A stretch of 38,877 nt of DNA from Chlorobiota bacterium (GTDB lineage: Bacteria > Bacteroidota > Bacteroidia > JAADEI01): NCBI GenBank assembly GCA_013153515.1, contig JAADEI010000130.1:1-38877 (forward strand), written 5' to 3'. The notes under the pieces were generated by a model. The model was not told where the DNA came from. It did no database searches and saw only the letters and a program-made list of their open reading frames with translations. A program made the translations under genes and the position numbers. The first letter of the stretch is position 1. Each line of letters opens with the position of its first letter. Positions 4,792-38,877 of the stretch are shown one piece after another.

Positions 4792-4901
4792 TGGCATAGA
4801 TATAATGTTTAAATGTAGCACACATTACAACTTCAATTTCCTAATATGCAACCTTTACGAATCAAAATGCATCTAATACAGGAAATCAAAATTTAATTAA
4901 C

Positions 4902-6653
4902 ATGAATAATAATAACATAATCATAGCGGTTTGTTTTTCTATCATTTCCCTATTTATTCCTCAATGGGCGAATGGACAATGTAGTGCGGATGCGGTCATT
5001 CAAGGTCCGGACTCCTGCAATCAAACTGTGTTTTTAGACCTAAATGGTCTTTCACCTGGATTTAGCTTTACAGTTAATTGGGGGGATGGTGTGATAGATA
5101 CAATGCCTTCATCGGGCTTATATTCTCATACATACCAATCCGGGGGGCTTTATTTTCCTTTCGTTGTAGTACATCCTTGTGGCGATACGATATACCCGAT
5201 GTCAATTAACTGCGTAATCCTTCCAGACTCCATCACTATGGTATGTGATACATCAACCAATGTATATATTCCTGATAGTTGCGGATCTATTTTGGGATTT
5301 GCTTATATAGACGTGAATGGTAATTGTTCCTTTGACAGTCTGGACATTCCCTTGCATGGATTACAAGCCTTAGCTTTGAGCAATAGCAACTACATAACAC
5401 ATGCTTTCGTTTCGCAAAGTGGATTTTTTGAATTATTTGTTTCTGCCACGGACACTTATACTGTTTTCATTGATTCTAACGCTATCGCAAACATGGGGCT
5501 TGTTCCGTCATGCGGTTATCCAAATGGTGTTCAAGCAACAACAAGGGACACTTTAGTATTCCCTTTCACTTGTAATAACTCTTATGACCTGACTATTAAT
5601 ATATTTACATCCCTATTCGCTCAAGTTGCTCCCCGTTGTTTGTATTTCACAGTAGGAAATAATGCTTGTTCTCCAATAACAGCAGATATAACTTTATCTT
5701 TGCCTCCTGAGCTTAATTTTACTGGAACCATATATACTCATTACAATAACACATCAATTCCCTTCACTGTCTCCGGTAATAACATTGTATTTAATAATGT
5801 TAATATGGACCCGTTCAGTAGCTTACATGGTTGCATAATGGTTCAGGCAGACTCATTATCTACATCTCTTGGGGACACACTATGTGTAACAGGAACTGTT
5901 GAACCTACTGCAGGTGATGCCGACACAACTAATAACACAGATGTAACATGTGGTGTTGTGGTAACTTCTTATGACCCGAACGACAAGCAAGTTGCAATAG
6001 AAGGTGTTAATGCCAATGGATTTGTAGAACCCAATAAAACCATGGAATATCTAATCCGATTCCAAAACATGGGAAGTTATTATGCTAAAAGAGTAATAAT
6101 AATTGATACCTTGTCCCCTCATCTCAACTGGCAATCCTTAAACTTGGTGAGTTCCTCCCATCCAGTCAGGATAATACAAGATAATTCTATTGTACACTTT
6201 ATCTTTGATAACATCTGGCTTGCGCCCAAAGACTCCGACGAAGCAGCCAGTCAAGGGTTTATATTCTTTACTATTGACCAAAAGCCGGATTTGACACCAG
6301 GAACAGAAATTACCAATTTTGCCGACATATATTTTGATTACAATCCCCCTGTCAGGACCAACGAAGTTATCAGCATAATTAGAGAGCCAAAGGGACCATT
6401 AGGGCTTGAAACATCTGAGCAATTGACGGTTAAGGTGTTCCCCAATCCAGCCTCTAAAAATATCCACGTTTTGCTTTCTAACTCAACAATGGCGGATGTT
6501 TCTCTTTATAACCTGAGCGGGCAAGTGGTGTTCAATACAAAAGGCTCTGGCAACGTAACTATTGGGGTCTCTAACCTACCCGCAGGAATATACCTATTGA
6601 TGATAACCACTAAGGATGGGCATCAAGAAACATACAAAGTAAAGATTAATTAA
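4902..6653 (+). CDS. Secreted protein with PKD-like, SdrD-B-like and DUF11-like domains and a T9SS sorting domain
   Basis: This 583-residue protein has an N-terminal signal peptide (hydrophobic residues about 7-20, cleavage near ANGQC). A PKD-like segment follows (NWGDG about residue 58, YSHTY about 72). Next is an SdrD-B-like start GFAYIDVNGNCSFDSLD near residue 130, which resembles Ca-binding Gram-positive stalk repeats. A C-terminal conserved region opens with SYDPNDKQV and contains IRFQNMGSYYA and FDYNPPVRTNEVI. The last roughly 80 residues are a type A T9SS sorting domain: VFPNPAS, SLYNLSGQVV, LPAGIYLLMITT. The protein is probably released or surface-anchored after T9SS export. Function is unknown, perhaps adhesion. 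The gene stands alone, with an A/T-rich leader and no Shine-Dalgarno sequence, and ends in a terminator. Confidence 0.85.
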   Translation: MNNNNIIIAVCFSIISLFIPQWANGQCSADAVIQGPDSCNQTVFLDLNGLSPGFSFTVNWGDGVIDTMPSSGLYSHTYQSGGLYFPFVVVHPCGDTIYPMSINCVILPDSITMVCDTSTNVYIPDSCGSILGFAYIDVNGNCSFDSLDIPLHGLQALALSNSNYITHAFVSQSGFFELFVSATDTYTVFIDSNAIANMGLVPSCGYPNGVQATTRDTLVFPFTCNNSYDLTINIFTSLFAQVAPRCLYFTVGNNACSPITADITLSLPPELNFTGTIYTHYNNTSIPFTVSGNNIVFNNVNMDPFSSLHGCIMVQADSLSTSLGDTLCVTGTVEPTAGDADTTNNTDVTCGVVVTSYDPNDKQVAIEGVNANGFVEPNKTMEYLIRFQNMGSYYAKRVIIIDTLSPHLNWQSLNLVSSSHPVRIIQDNSIVHFIFDNIWLAPKDSDEAASQGFIFFTIDQKPDLTPGTEITNFADIYFDYNPPVRTNEVISIIREPKGPLGLETSEQLTVKVFPNPASKNIHVLLSNSTMADVSLYNLSGQVVFNTKGSGNVTIGVSNLPAGIYLLMITTKDGHQETYKVKIN

Positions 6654-35081: not shown

Positions 35082-36590
35082 CTGGCAATCAAAACCATAT
35101 TACTTATTGGGCTGGTAATTACCTTGCCTTATTTTTCTTTCGCTCAACATACCATAACCATAGAGAACGCTGAGCAGGTAATTATCTTAGACGACCCAGA
35201 ACCTACTAAAATCCTTAAGGGAAATGTTCATATCAGACACAAACAAACACATCTTTGGGCTGACTCAATAGTTCTGTTTGGAAAAGACAGTGCCATAGCA
35301 ATTGGAAACGTTAGGTTTTCCGTTGGCGATACGATATTCGGTTCAGGGGCAAATAGGCTCACATACAATAGAAACCTTCTGATTGCAACAGGAAACATTA
35401 CTGTGTCATCAAAGCAAAGCACAATAATAACTTCCTATTTCACCTATGACCTGCGTTCCCAAAGGGCTTCGGCAATAAACATCACTTGGACAACGCAGTC
35501 TGGACAGATTTCGGCTAAGCACCTATTCATCTCTGGAAACACATTCATATTCACCGATTCAGTGAAAGCACGACGAAATGGGACATATTCCCTTAGTGAT
35601 ACGCTTGTTGTTAATGAAAAAACAAACAAATATGTTTTTTCTGGAAATGTTCTCATTATTCAAGATGGCGATTCAATCAAAGCCCGACGGGTAGTAGCCC
35701 TTCCCGACAAACAGGAAATATACATTGGTTTAGGCATCCACGCTGATTCCCTTATCTGGATTGCCGACACTGTAATCATAGAAGCAAACAGACAGACCTT
35801 AAAAAATGCATTGATAAAGCGGGATTCCCTATTGCTGGCTGGAAAACAGATACATTTTTACAACAACCAACTGGACATCACAGACACCTTCTCATTATTG
35901 ATTTGCCGTTCCAACGACGCTTCTATTCTCATCTCAGGCAAACGGCTCAACTTGGATTCTTCTCAACAAAATGGCTTCCTGTTCAAAGGGATTATTAAGC
36001 AAGGGGAATCGTCTATGTGGGCGGATTCCATTCACATGATTGATTCAGTGATTGTATTGCGACGCAATGGCTGGATATCTCTTAATGAGTGGTTCATCAC
36101 TGGCAATGAAATAATTATCCACAAGACAGATTCACCAGATAACAAACAATTTGATTCTGTGGTTGTTTATGGGAACGCTTGGATGCTCAAACCCATTGAT
36201 TCCATCCGCACCAACCAACTCACTTCACCCAAGATAATCATTCGCTTTTTTGAAAACGATTCAATAACTATCCTTGCCTGTTGCCCTGTCAAAACAGTGT
36301 TTTACAACACCAACGACAAAGGCGAAATAACCAGTGTTAACTACACCGAAGGCGACAGGCTAACCGCTCTGTTCATTAACGACTCTCTGCGAAACATTAT
36401 CATGCATAAAAATCTTTCTGGATACATAGAGGAAAACGCCACTGCCAACCTGAAAGGACTGCCTGAAATCCCTATTCGTTCCGCTTCAACACCAATAAAA
36501 TTCTGGACTGAAACACTAAAGCCTTTGAGCAAACAGTTCATAGACCAAATTGCTAAGCGACTGGTTTGCGTTCGGGAAGAAAAGCAATAA
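35082..36590 (+). CDS. OstA/LptA-like periplasmic protein (start codon non-canonical or uncertain)
   Basis: The protein is about 490-500 residues. It has OstA-type beta-jellyroll segments (KILKGNVHIRHKQTHLWADS, IGNVRFSVGDTIFGSGANRLTY, VFSGNVLIIQDGDSIKA) like the LptA/LptD N-terminal fold that shuttles LPS across the periplasm. The track starts at TTG 35124, which would leave just seven residues of signal peptide. In-frame upstream sequence encodes a complete one (AIKTILLIGLVITLPYFSFAQ) but offers no ATG, GTG or TTG back to the stop at 34995. CTG 35082 with AAAGG eight bases upstream, or ATA 35058 overlapping the acd stop, are the candidate starts. There is no LptD barrel domain. The family call rests on repeat pattern and envelope context. 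Confidence 0.72.
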   Translation: MAIKTILLIGLVITLPYFSFAQHTITIENAEQVIILDDPEPTKILKGNVHIRHKQTHLWADSIVLFGKDSAIAIGNVRFSVGDTIFGSGANRLTYNRNLLIATGNITVSSKQSTIITSYFTYDLRSQRASAINITWTTQSGQISAKHLFISGNTFIFTDSVKARRNGTYSLSDTLVVNEKTNKYVFSGNVLIIQDGDSIKARRVVALPDKQEIYIGLGIHADSLIWIADTVIIEANRQTLKNALIKRDSLLLAGKQIHFYNNQLDITDTFSLLICRSNDASILISGKRLNLDSSQQNGFLFKGIIKQGESSMWADSIHMIDSVIVLRRNGWISLNEWFITGNEIIIHKTDSPDNKQFDSVVVYGNAWMLKPIDSIRTNQLTSPKIIIRFFENDSITILACCPVKTVFYNTNDKGEITSVNYTEGDRLTALFINDSLRNIIMHKNLSGYIEENATANLKGLPEIPIRSASTPIKFWTETLKPLSKQFIDQIAKRLVCVREEKQ

Positions 36591-36643
36591 AAACTTTATA
36601 TTTACACTGTTATTGGTCTAAACCAATCAAACTAAAAAGCCTA

Positions 36644-37831
36644 ATGAACAAGAAATTAAGGATTGAATTAAAAGATTTTGGGCAGATAAAGGAAGGGCAG
36701 GTCCAAATCGGCGACTTAACTGTATTAGTGGGAGAACAAGCCAGTGGTAAAACATTATTTCTTGAACTGTTCAAGTTTATCCACGATAGGCATTTCATTA
36801 AGAAAGTCTTTCAGGAAAAAGGATTCACCATTGACTCAATAGAAGATTTATTTTCGCTTTATTTCGGATGTTCCAAGGAATTAATTCCCGTCAAAGAAGG
36901 CTCAGAGATAAGACTTAACGGAAGGGCAATAAACTTACGCAACCTTAAAGGAAGAGGAAGCAAGAATTTAAGGGAAAAAGAATCTGTGTTTTACATTCCT
37001 GCACAAAGGATTTTAACCCTTGCTGATGGATGGTTCAAAGATTTCAACGCCTTCAGTTTAGAAACGCCCTTTGTTGTAAGGCACTTTAGTGAAACAATGC
37101 GTATTGTAACAGAGCAGTTAATTAGGGCACAACGACAAGAACCAATCCTGTTCCCGCATCCCAAGAGATTAATCTCAGAACTAAAAGACAAACTGCAACA
37201 GACTGTCTTCAAAGGTTGGAAGTTAATGTATAAAGCAGAAGGATTTAGGAAACATCTTGTTTTAACAGACCCTTCACAACAAAACGTGTCTTTATCCTTT
37301 TTCAGTTGGTCAACTGGACAACGTGAATTTGTTCCGTTATTATTGGGGCTTTATTGGTTGAGTCCATCTGCTAAAAAGAGTAAGAGAAATTTTGATTATG
37401 TGGTCATTGAAGAGCCAGAGATGGGGCTTCACCCTCACGCCTATCTGGATGTTATCTTAATCTTGCTAACTCTGTTAGAGCGAGGATACAAAATCCTTAT
37501 CAGTTCGCATTCGCCCGCAATTTTAGATGTCATTTGGGTTCTTAGAAATCTGTTCCGCTTGCAAGACACTACTACCCAGACAAAATTGTTTATGCAATTT
37601 TTCGGCTTGAAGAAGAAGCATCCTTGGGTATATAAACTCATTAAATCATTAAGGAATAAGGATATGAAGGTATTTTATTTCAAGACAAATAACAACTATC
37701 AAACAATCATCCAAGACATTTCTGAACTGGAAAATTTTGAAGAAGAATCCATTCAAAATTGGGGCGGATTACTGAGCATTGCCGACAAGGCATCAGAAGT
37801 GGTTAGCACTATATCAAGGAAGTTAAAGTGA
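36644..37831 (+). CDS. ABC-type AAA ATPase (AAA_15/21-like), possible defence ATPase
   Basis: This 395-residue protein starts at ATG 36644 (MNKKLRIELKDFG); the track extends to 36566 without support. Walker A is GEQASGKT (residues 30-37). The signature-like SWSTGQREFVPLLL is followed by Walker B DYVVIEEPEMGLHPHA and the H-loop SSHSPAIL. The insertion between Walker A and the signature is about 190 residues, without coiled-coil heptads long enough for an SMC hinge. Such stand-alone ATPases (OLD, PARIS AriA, PtuA groups) often work with a second effector gene. No TOPRIM or nuclease domain is fused here. A TATATTTA lies at 36597-36604. The small Cys-rich gene follows after six bases. Confidence 0.8.
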   Translation: MNKKLRIELKDFGQIKEGQVQIGDLTVLVGEQASGKTLFLELFKFIHDRHFIKKVFQEKGFTIDSIEDLFSLYFGCSKELIPVKEGSEIRLNGRAINLRNLKGRGSKNLREKESVFYIPAQRILTLADGWFKDFNAFSLETPFVVRHFSETMRIVTEQLIRAQRQEPILFPHPKRLISELKDKLQQTVFKGWKLMYKAEGFRKHLVLTDPSQQNVSLSFFSWSTGQREFVPLLLGLYWLSPSAKKSKRNFDYVVIEEPEMGLHPHAYLDVILILLTLLERGYKILISSHSPAILDVIWVLRNLFRLQDTTTQTKLFMQFFGLKKKHPWVYKLIKSLRNKDMKVFYFKTNNNYQTIIQDISELENFEEESIQNWGGLLSIADKASEVVSTISRKLK

Positions 37832-37837
37832 GGCAAG

Positions 37838-38275
37838 ATGAGCAAAAAGTGTCTTGCTATTTGTTGTGAAGCAATAAGCCCTAATATGCTTAATTATGTT
37901 AAAGATGGTCTACAAGCACTTCCTAAAAGCCACAAAGCATGTATTAAAACTTCCAAATGCAAAAAGTATTGTAGTATTCAACTTGACGGGGGCTTCTGCA
38001 CTTCTGGAACTTTTGATTATTTGATAATATGTTATGACCGTCAAAACACCCAATGCATTGCTTTAGAAATCCATCCTGCCGACACTTCCGAAGTTACAAC
38101 CATAAAACAAAAATTTCACAGGACAGAAAAGTGCAGGAAAAAACACAACTGCCAAAATTGGGATTATTACTGGGTTCCACCCAGAAGAAAGGGAATTAGT
38201 ATCAAGAAGGATTCAAGAAAATGGAAGGAACTTGCTCAATTGGGCATACAAATTCGCAGGCAGGTTGAAATATAG
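37838..38275 (+). CDS. Small Cys-rich protein, partner of the AAA ATPase, function unknown
   Basis: This 145-residue protein contains eleven cysteines (5, 9, 10, 35, 41, 45, 54, 65, 73, 99, 105), no signal peptide and no membrane helix. The central FDYLIICYDRQN, then CIALEIHPADTSEV, resembles a beta hairpin with Asp60, Glu77 and His79, vaguely like a PD-(D/E)xK nuclease core, but the match is too weak to name. The tail is basic (RKKHN, PPRRKGISIKKDSRKWKEL). GAGG sits five bases before its ATG, which is six bases after the ATPase stop, so the genes are surely co-transcribed. The first full line of the gene (37861-37920) counts 20 G+C of 60, well below the acyl-CoA dehydrogenase. Confidence 0.7.
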   Translation: MSKKCLAICCEAISPNMLNYVKDGLQALPKSHKACIKTSKCKKYCSIQLDGGFCTSGTFDYLIICYDRQNTQCIALEIHPADTSEVTTIKQKFHRTEKCRKKHNCQNWDYYWVPPRRKGISIKKDSRKWKELAQLGIQIRRQVEI

Positions 38276-38448: not shown

Positions 38449-38877
38449 CTATCTAATTTGTTGCTTTTTTGATTTTCCAACGAACAAGAGATAACTTACT
38501 AAGCCTGCCAGTGTCCACACAATGCCAGTGATAATTCCAGAGGCACCAGTCCAGAGAGTATCGCTAATGAAGTAGTCTGCGACGAGTCCCATGGACATTG
38601 TCATTCCGTGCAAGAGAGCGGTTGGGATAATGGAATTGGTAGCATAGCGAAGGGGCATCATGGTTAGGGTCATACCGAGAGTTACGAGAGCCGAGGCGAG
38701 TATTACCAATGGCAAAGGGGCGTCATGGGGATATTTATACTGCAACAGGGCAGTGAGGGGCAAGTGCCATAAAAACCAGAATAGCCAAGACAAAAATGTG
38801 GCATAGAAAAATTTATATCTCAATCCGAGCAATGTGGGGATTAGTCCACGCCATAGGATTTCTTCACCGAGGGCAAA
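38449..38877 (-). CDS. CPBP family intramembrane protease (partial, N-terminus beyond window)
   Basis: The frame is open to the right edge; the track's 38832 TTG start is internal. The first residues read FALGEEILWRG, the EExxxR motif. FWFLWHLP and LLHGMTMSMG follow, giving the FxxxH and third His motifs of CPBP (Abi/CAAX-like) glutamate proteases. Four or so hydrophobic helices are present and the tail is short and basic (GKSKKQQIR). Substrates are unknown in most bacterial members. It is convergent with the ATPase/Cys-rich pair across a 173-base gap in which I saw no clear terminator. Confidence 0.85.
   Translation of the reverse strand, partial: FALGEEILWRGLIPTLLGLRYKFFYATFLSWLFWFLWHLPLTALLQYKYPHDAPLPLVILASALVTLGMTLTMMPLRYATNSIIPTALLHGMTMSMGLVADYFISDTLWTGASGIITGIVWTLAGLVSYLLFVGKSKKQQIR

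Follow-up and report, generated by a model that had tools for sequence, protein, structure and literature searches.

A divergent member of the candidate defence system PDC-M56: an OLD-like ABC ATPase paired with a small, probably PD-(D/E)XK-fold, partner protein

The locus and its catalogue status

The window analysed here is the whole 38,877-nucleotide stretch of contig JAADEI010000130.1 from a Chlorobiota bacterium. Direct reading of the sequence near its 3' end located two genes on the forward (+) strand. The first, which runs from an ATG at 36644 to a stop at 37831 (36644..37831), encodes an ABC/OLD-like ATPase of 395 aa. It is followed, after a six-base intergenic gap (37832..37837, +), by a gene for a small protein of 145 aa, which begins with an ATG at 37838 and stops at 38275 (37838..38275, +) and is referred to below as the partner. 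An earlier note on this DNA had described these genes as a two-gene unit, and its coordinates, motifs and gap, together with the 145-aa length, 11 cysteines and E77-I-H79 segment of the partner, were all found as described. Since homologous gene pairs overlap or abut, most commonly with a 4-base overlap (32 loci), we infer that the two window genes are co-transcribed.

The gene directly upstream of the pair encodes an LptA/OstA-like protein (35124-36590; 41% G+C) and is not acd, which the earlier note had placed beside the pair. Just downstream lies a CAAX-protease-like (Rce1) gene on the minus strand (38449-38877), which runs off the contig end; the window and the contig both end 602 bases 3' of the pair, and the downstream context is seen only that far. 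The pair proved richer in A+T than its neighbours, as had been suggested from counts of single lines. In a comparison made within the window, its G+C content was 37.5% versus 43.1% for positions 1-36540 and 48% for the acd gene, and the ATPase ORF was the most A+T-rich of the 26 large ORFs. Comparison with a same-genus genome (G001) placed a synteny break just 5' of the pair (36546..36643), with 92% identity up to window position 36546 and divergence thereafter. Synteny with G001 extends through the LptA/OstA-like gene and no further, and the G001 contig itself ends ∼440 bases further on. No homologue of the window pair was detected in two same-genus genomes, one of which is G001; both are draft MAGs, so this absence is uncertain.

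The window ATPase contains the Walker A motif GEQASGKT (residues 30-37), STGQRE (223-228) and the segment VVIEEPEMGLHPHA (253-266). Its key residues are the Walker A lysine K36, R122 of a PAQR motif, the Walker B glutamates E256-E257 and the H-loop histidine H289, and the signature reads W222-S-x-G-Q-x-E-F229. An alignment of 81 ATPases revealed that the Walker A lysine, P-A-x-R, W-S-x-G-Q-x-E-F, the Walker B glutamates and the H-loop histidine are invariant; judged by these motifs, the ATPase looks active. The closest solved structures by sequence were an OLD-family enzyme (6p74) and PtuA of Septu/retron Ec78, and in Pfam the protein matched only AAA_15/AAA_21. OLD carries a C-terminal TOPRIM domain. 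PDC-M56A proteins, the catalogue family to which the window ATPase belongs (see below), are 374-427 aa long (81 proteins), which leaves no room for such a domain.

Searches against PADLOC-DB revealed that the two-gene unit is not new, given that both proteins are already modelled there as the candidate defence system PDC-M56. The ATPase matched model PDC-M56A with an E-value of 1.3e-117 over residues 6-391 of 395, and the partner matched PDC-M56B, alone among the PADLOC models, with an E-value of 1.3e-14 over residues 15-144 of 145. The gene order and same-strand adjacency of PDC-M56 were both present in the window pair, the genes of which lie six bases apart. The weak PDC-M56B score of the window partner (52 bits versus 130-191 bits for typical relatives) is explained by its divergence, the match being supported by the five invariant residues described below, and the window pair is a divergent member of PDC-M56. 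For the Septu- or PARIS-like layout of ATPase plus effector that the earlier note had recognized, the PADLOC entry is an independent listing as a defence candidate. The PDC entries are candidates that were identified via guilt-by-embedding and are either unpublished or not validated (PMC11811056, PMC12988326), and PDC systems have been described as largely unvalidated (PMC12988326). In the literature searched, no paper was found under the name PDC-M56 and no published experiment on any of its members. The window partner gave no match in Pfam, NCBIfam or PHROG. What the present analysis adds is a predicted and probable identification of the partner as a nuclease whose active site would be rearranged, evidence that ATPase and partner are paired almost obligately in many phyla, and the reassignment of the cysteines from a family feature to a subgroup trait.

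Fold, putative active site and cysteines of the partner

Alignment of 77 partner proteins, in which mean column identity was 30%, revealed five invariant residues, S46, D60, E77, H79 and K92 (window numbering). The Glu77-x-His79 segment singled out in the earlier note is therefore kept in 77/77 homologues. Both members of the D...E acidic pair expected of PD-(D/E)XK motifs II and III, D60 and E77, were present in every sequence (77/77), and the ExK element was replaced by E-x-H in all 77. K92 is carried by the following helix and lies 15 residues C-terminal to the glutamate in 67/77 partners.

AlphaFold models were obtained for the window partner (pLDDT 93.2) and for a Pseudanabaena homologue with 28% identity to it (pLDDT 96.8). 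In the window model, the loop preceding strand 61-66 ends with D60, the next strand (71-78) ends at E77-x-H79, and K92 lies within the helix that follows (83-102). Foldseek searches of the PDB with the window partner returned Mus81-Eme1, PaqCI, Card1, FokI, BamHI, Nt.BspD6I, Cap4 and Avs4, and those with the Pseudanabaena partner returned Cdn1, Avs3, AF1548, Can2, Nt.BspD6I, a bunyavirus cap-snatching endonuclease, Mus81 and Hjc. A viral structure library yielded ERCC4, VRR-NUC, Mrr-like, restriction endonuclease and endonuclease I proteins. Every one of these matches was weak when taken alone (best E 0.003-0.013 over the three lists; best E 0.008-0.013 and TM about 0.4 or less for the two PDB lists), and the lower ranks included unrelated folds such as beta-lactamases. 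The assignment draws instead on the convergence of all three lists on a single superfamily, single matches not being significant, and on this basis the partner probably belongs to the nucleases with a PD-(D/E)XK fold. No meaningful match was obtained when the partner sequence profile was compared with PDB chains.

The predicted fold matches no single housekeeping family; a match of that kind is what the earlier note had named as counting against its proposal. Of the three folds that the note had put forward for structure prediction, namely nuclease, zinc finger and TA, the models point to the first, albeit through weak matches, and zinc finger fails as a family feature. Its statement that the partner lacks the TOPRIM or HNH domain of comparable modules was right, in that neither domain is recognizable, but its reading was incomplete, the partner being itself a predicted nuclease of another fold. 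TOPRIM, HNH, HEPN and known toxin domains were each considered and rejected, with only scattered sub-threshold Pfam matches among the 77 members.

The arrangement of D60, E77-x-H79 and a lysine, K92, apparently shifted to the next helix looks like an active site. An hhalign comparison with PD-T4-4_B placed D60, E77, H79 and K92 on D78, E95, K97 and Q110, respectively, although the alignment was not significant (E = 0.02, probability 2%). In this pairing, the usual ExK lysine corresponds to the histidine of the partner, and the lysine of the partner stands at the helix position. Several PD-(D/E)XK families are on record in which the motif III lysine has moved to motif IV (PMC1913061).

The high cysteine content that the earlier note had read as an effector trait turned out to be a local trait that the window copy has in common with its nearest relative, from a MAG of Saprospiraceae (L009). 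The median number of cysteines per partner was 2 in the 77 homologues, compared with 11 in the window partner and nine in that of L009. A zinc-finger or other cysteine-based effector as a family feature was rejected, given that most homologues have ∼2 cysteines and that, outside the closest relative, no conservation above chance was seen at any of the 11 positions. Window and L009 proteins are 54% identical for the ATPase and about 40% for the partner; their partners have cysteines in common at positions 35, 45 and 105 and near the N terminus, and both lack the family motifs R58-W59 and W95-L96. In the ATPase tree, the two form a pair with 100/100 support on a long stem (1.5 changes per column) that is separate from the main Bacteroidota clade, and their attachment point is unsure because long branches meet there. 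A subgroup-specific metal site is possible in these two partners.

Pairing, distribution and genomic neighbours

A scan of GTDB with five ATPase queries and one genome per species yielded 404 ATPase relatives, the best 80 of which were kept; these span roughly fifteen phyla. Among these best 80 of 404, a profile search located the partner directly downstream of the ATPase and on the same strand in 76 cases, three of which had a split or short partner (L068, L075 and L088). The ATPase lacked the partner at the other four loci (L035, L036, L066 and L087, the last retaining only an N-terminal remnant), so relatives with the ATPase alone are the exception (4/80) and not the majority against which the earlier note had cautioned. 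Given the matches of both proteins to curated models and their side-by-side recurrence in 76/80 loci, the pairing is beyond chance. Distribution was sparse, with the system present in 6/396 Bacteroidota.

The neighbours of the relatives include HsdS, HsdM, HsdR, type IIG, GajB, AbiD, DRT and mads genes. These restriction and defence neighbours were absent among the 25 families listed for a control set of 112 randomly located genes; most of those families were generic helicases and sigma-54 regulators, along with a few isolated PDC, PsyrT or Dodola-like matches. The PADLOC tallies count proteins per family rather than per locus, so that they show enrichment in defence islands qualitatively. On one viral contig (L103), the ATPase and partner genes lie at 4890-6616 on the plus strand, flanked by genes for a major head protein and scaffold/portal proteins, all on the minus strand. 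This copy is a moron-like insertion, in a place typical of accessory phage genes. A separate viral contig of 187 kb carries an ATPase relative without partner (L105:4980-6203).

The direct neighbours of the pair are mostly housekeeping genes. In Poribacteria (L036, L053, L058, L059, L066, L085 and L088), the usual order is NUDIX hydrolase, ATPase, partner and Gfo/Idh oxidoreductase; L036 and L066 have no partner gene, and that of L088 is split, which indicates that the ATPase can outlive its partner. In Pseudanabaena, the pair likewise occupies a fixed position (aminotransferase, ATPase, partner). In both groups, the pair behaves as if vertically inherited. Fixed context of this kind and the many housekeeping neighbours would suit a chromosomal pair for DNA repair or genome maintenance, in which an OLD/RecF-like ATPase guides a structure-specific, Mus81/Hjc-like nuclease to damaged or branched DNA with no role against phage, and Mus81 and Hjc are indeed among the closest folds of the partner. 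Such a role is nevertheless unlikely, in that sparse spread (6/396 Bacteroidota), absence from same-genus genomes, decayed partners, a copy among phage head genes and restriction-modification neighbours are all unusual for repair genes.

Loss and decay were observed on both sides of the pair. The partner was lost or decayed while the ATPase stayed in L007, L035, L036, L066 and L087, and in both cases in which a partner was seen with no ATPase nearby, it was itself decayed, by an in-frame stop (G084) or a truncated N terminus (L006). Taken together, the decayed partner genes (L002 and L101 in G084, L006, L007 and L087) comprise an in-frame stop, a truncation, a frameshift and a remnant. Searches by tblastn with the window partner gave no match in phage or plasmid records, and two partner homologues used as queries gave one match among 72,556 plasmid records.

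These observations bear on whether the pair serves addiction or the maintenance of a plasmid or other element in the manner of a toxin-antitoxin system, the partner being a toxic nuclease restrained by the ATPase and any defence incidental. Overlapping genes, patchy spread and partner loss or decay in the five ATPase-keeping loci would all fit, as would the toxicity of PtuAB alone once released from its retron (PMC11555353) and of WonB when overproduced (PMC12137116). We nonetheless consider such a function rather improbable. Plasmid records returned the single match above and none with the window protein, the ATPase of WonAB is required for toxicity and does not neutralize it (PMC12137116), and an ATPase without partner or a decayed partner without ATPase is also expected from the turnover of defence genes.

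We infer a defence function from the PADLOC listing, the patchy distribution (6/396 Bacteroidota), the absence from sister genomes, the presence of some defence neighbours and the copy among phage head genes. Weighed against the housekeeping neighbours and fixed positions, this evidence makes an anti-phage role of the pair somewhat probable.

Proposed mechanism and comparison with known systems

The preferred reading, which we regard as fairly probable, is that the pair constitutes a two-component sensor-effector module, most likely anti-phage, in which a PD-(D/E)XK-fold nuclease is docked on an OLD-like ATPase. The following minimal model can be proposed. The ABC ATPase would dimerize around ATP, and the small nuclease would dock on it and be held or activated by it. 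An infection signal would alter the state of the ATPase, upon which the nuclease would cut nucleic acid, with host RNA or phage nucleic acid a more likely target than the host chromosome, and phage production would stop. That the ATPase may sense infection and license the nuclease is proposed by analogy with WonAB, the best guide, and with PtuAB. Within the nuclease, Asp60 and Glu77 would bind metal, His79 would replace the usual ExK lysine, and Lys92, one helix later, could provide the missing positive charge. The model builds on the observed operon, residue conservation, predicted fold, intact ATPase motifs and patchy, mobile distribution; complex formation, catalysis, target, trigger and defence itself are its predicted parts.

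A more specific version of this model is put forward tentatively and is doubtful as a whole. Here, the partners would form a distinct PD-(D/E)XK family with a rearranged site (D, E-x-H and a moved lysine) that cuts RNA such as tRNA when the ATPase senses infection, and the cysteine-rich subgroup would have gained a metal-binding site that changes target or trigger. That the partner instead has a nuclease fold but is catalytically inactive, with histidine for the ExK lysine, and acts as a nucleic-acid-binding specificity subunit of the ATPase is very improbable: the canonical ExK is absent in all 77 sequences (E-x-H), but D60, E77, H79 and K92 are all invariant at 30% column identity, as expected of an active site that selection maintains, and lysine migration is a known working variant (PMC1913061).

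The closest characterized systems of the same kind as the proposed sensor-effector module are WonAB, PD-T4-4 and Septu, but the pair lacks features by which these are defined. WonAB, from the WASA-1 prophage of Vibrio cholerae, combines an OLD-like ABC ATPase with a ∼16-kDa PD-(D/E)xK nuclease in one operon, and both proteins are needed (PMC12137116). It has been shown experimentally to provide abortive defence, in which translation stops and the chromosome stays intact, and the toxicity of its nuclease requires the ATPase (PMC12137116). PDC-M56 resembles it in consisting of two genes in an operon, an OLD-like ABC ATPase and a small nuclease of PD-(D/E)xK fold, predicted in the case of PDC-M56. 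WonAB is set apart by the motif spacing of its ATPase, the distance from Walker A K34 to Walker B E300 in WonA being 266 residues compared with 209-232 in 81 PDC-M56A proteins. An operon designated "OLD-ABC ATPase + novel REase" in Anaerovibrio lipolyticus is cited in PMC12137116, and PDC-M56 could be part of that set.

In PD-T4-4, an ATPase is likewise followed directly by a small PD-(D/E)xK protein. However, the PD-T4-4 A model matched the window ATPase with an E-value of 1.3e-15, against 1.3e-117 for PDC-M56A, and the PD-T4-4_B model was silent on the window partner and in the window's genome. PD-T4-4_B also has E-x-K where PDC-M56B has E-x-H. Septu and the PtuAB proteins of retron Ec78 share the combination of ABC ATPase and small nuclease, and PtuA is among the closest solved ATPases. 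By contrast, PtuB is an HNH nuclease, whereas no HNH match was found in any of the 77 PDC-M56B members and their predicted fold differs; PtuA, at about 460-550 aa, also has extra regions. Some PtuAB versions cut tRNA-Tyr (PMC13096335, PMC11555353), and others act on DNA (as stated in PMC11555353).

PARIS (AriA-AriB) also consists of two genes, for an ATPase and an effector, and the window ATPase matches (5e-19) the generic AAA models grouped under AriA in PADLOC. AriB, however, is a TOPRIM nuclease (PMC12409363), whereas no TOPRIM match was found in the 77 PDC-M56B members, the predicted fold of which differs from that of AriB. Many of the candidate systems in PADLOC have no assigned mechanism, and for PDC-M56B the nuclease reading and the five invariant residues would define a testable enzyme. 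So read, PDC-M56 would add another independent nuclease to the growing set of immune pairs of ABC ATPase and nuclease represented by Septu, WonAB and PD-T4-4, which points to a single sensor design combined with HNH, TOPRIM and several PD-(D/E)XK effectors.
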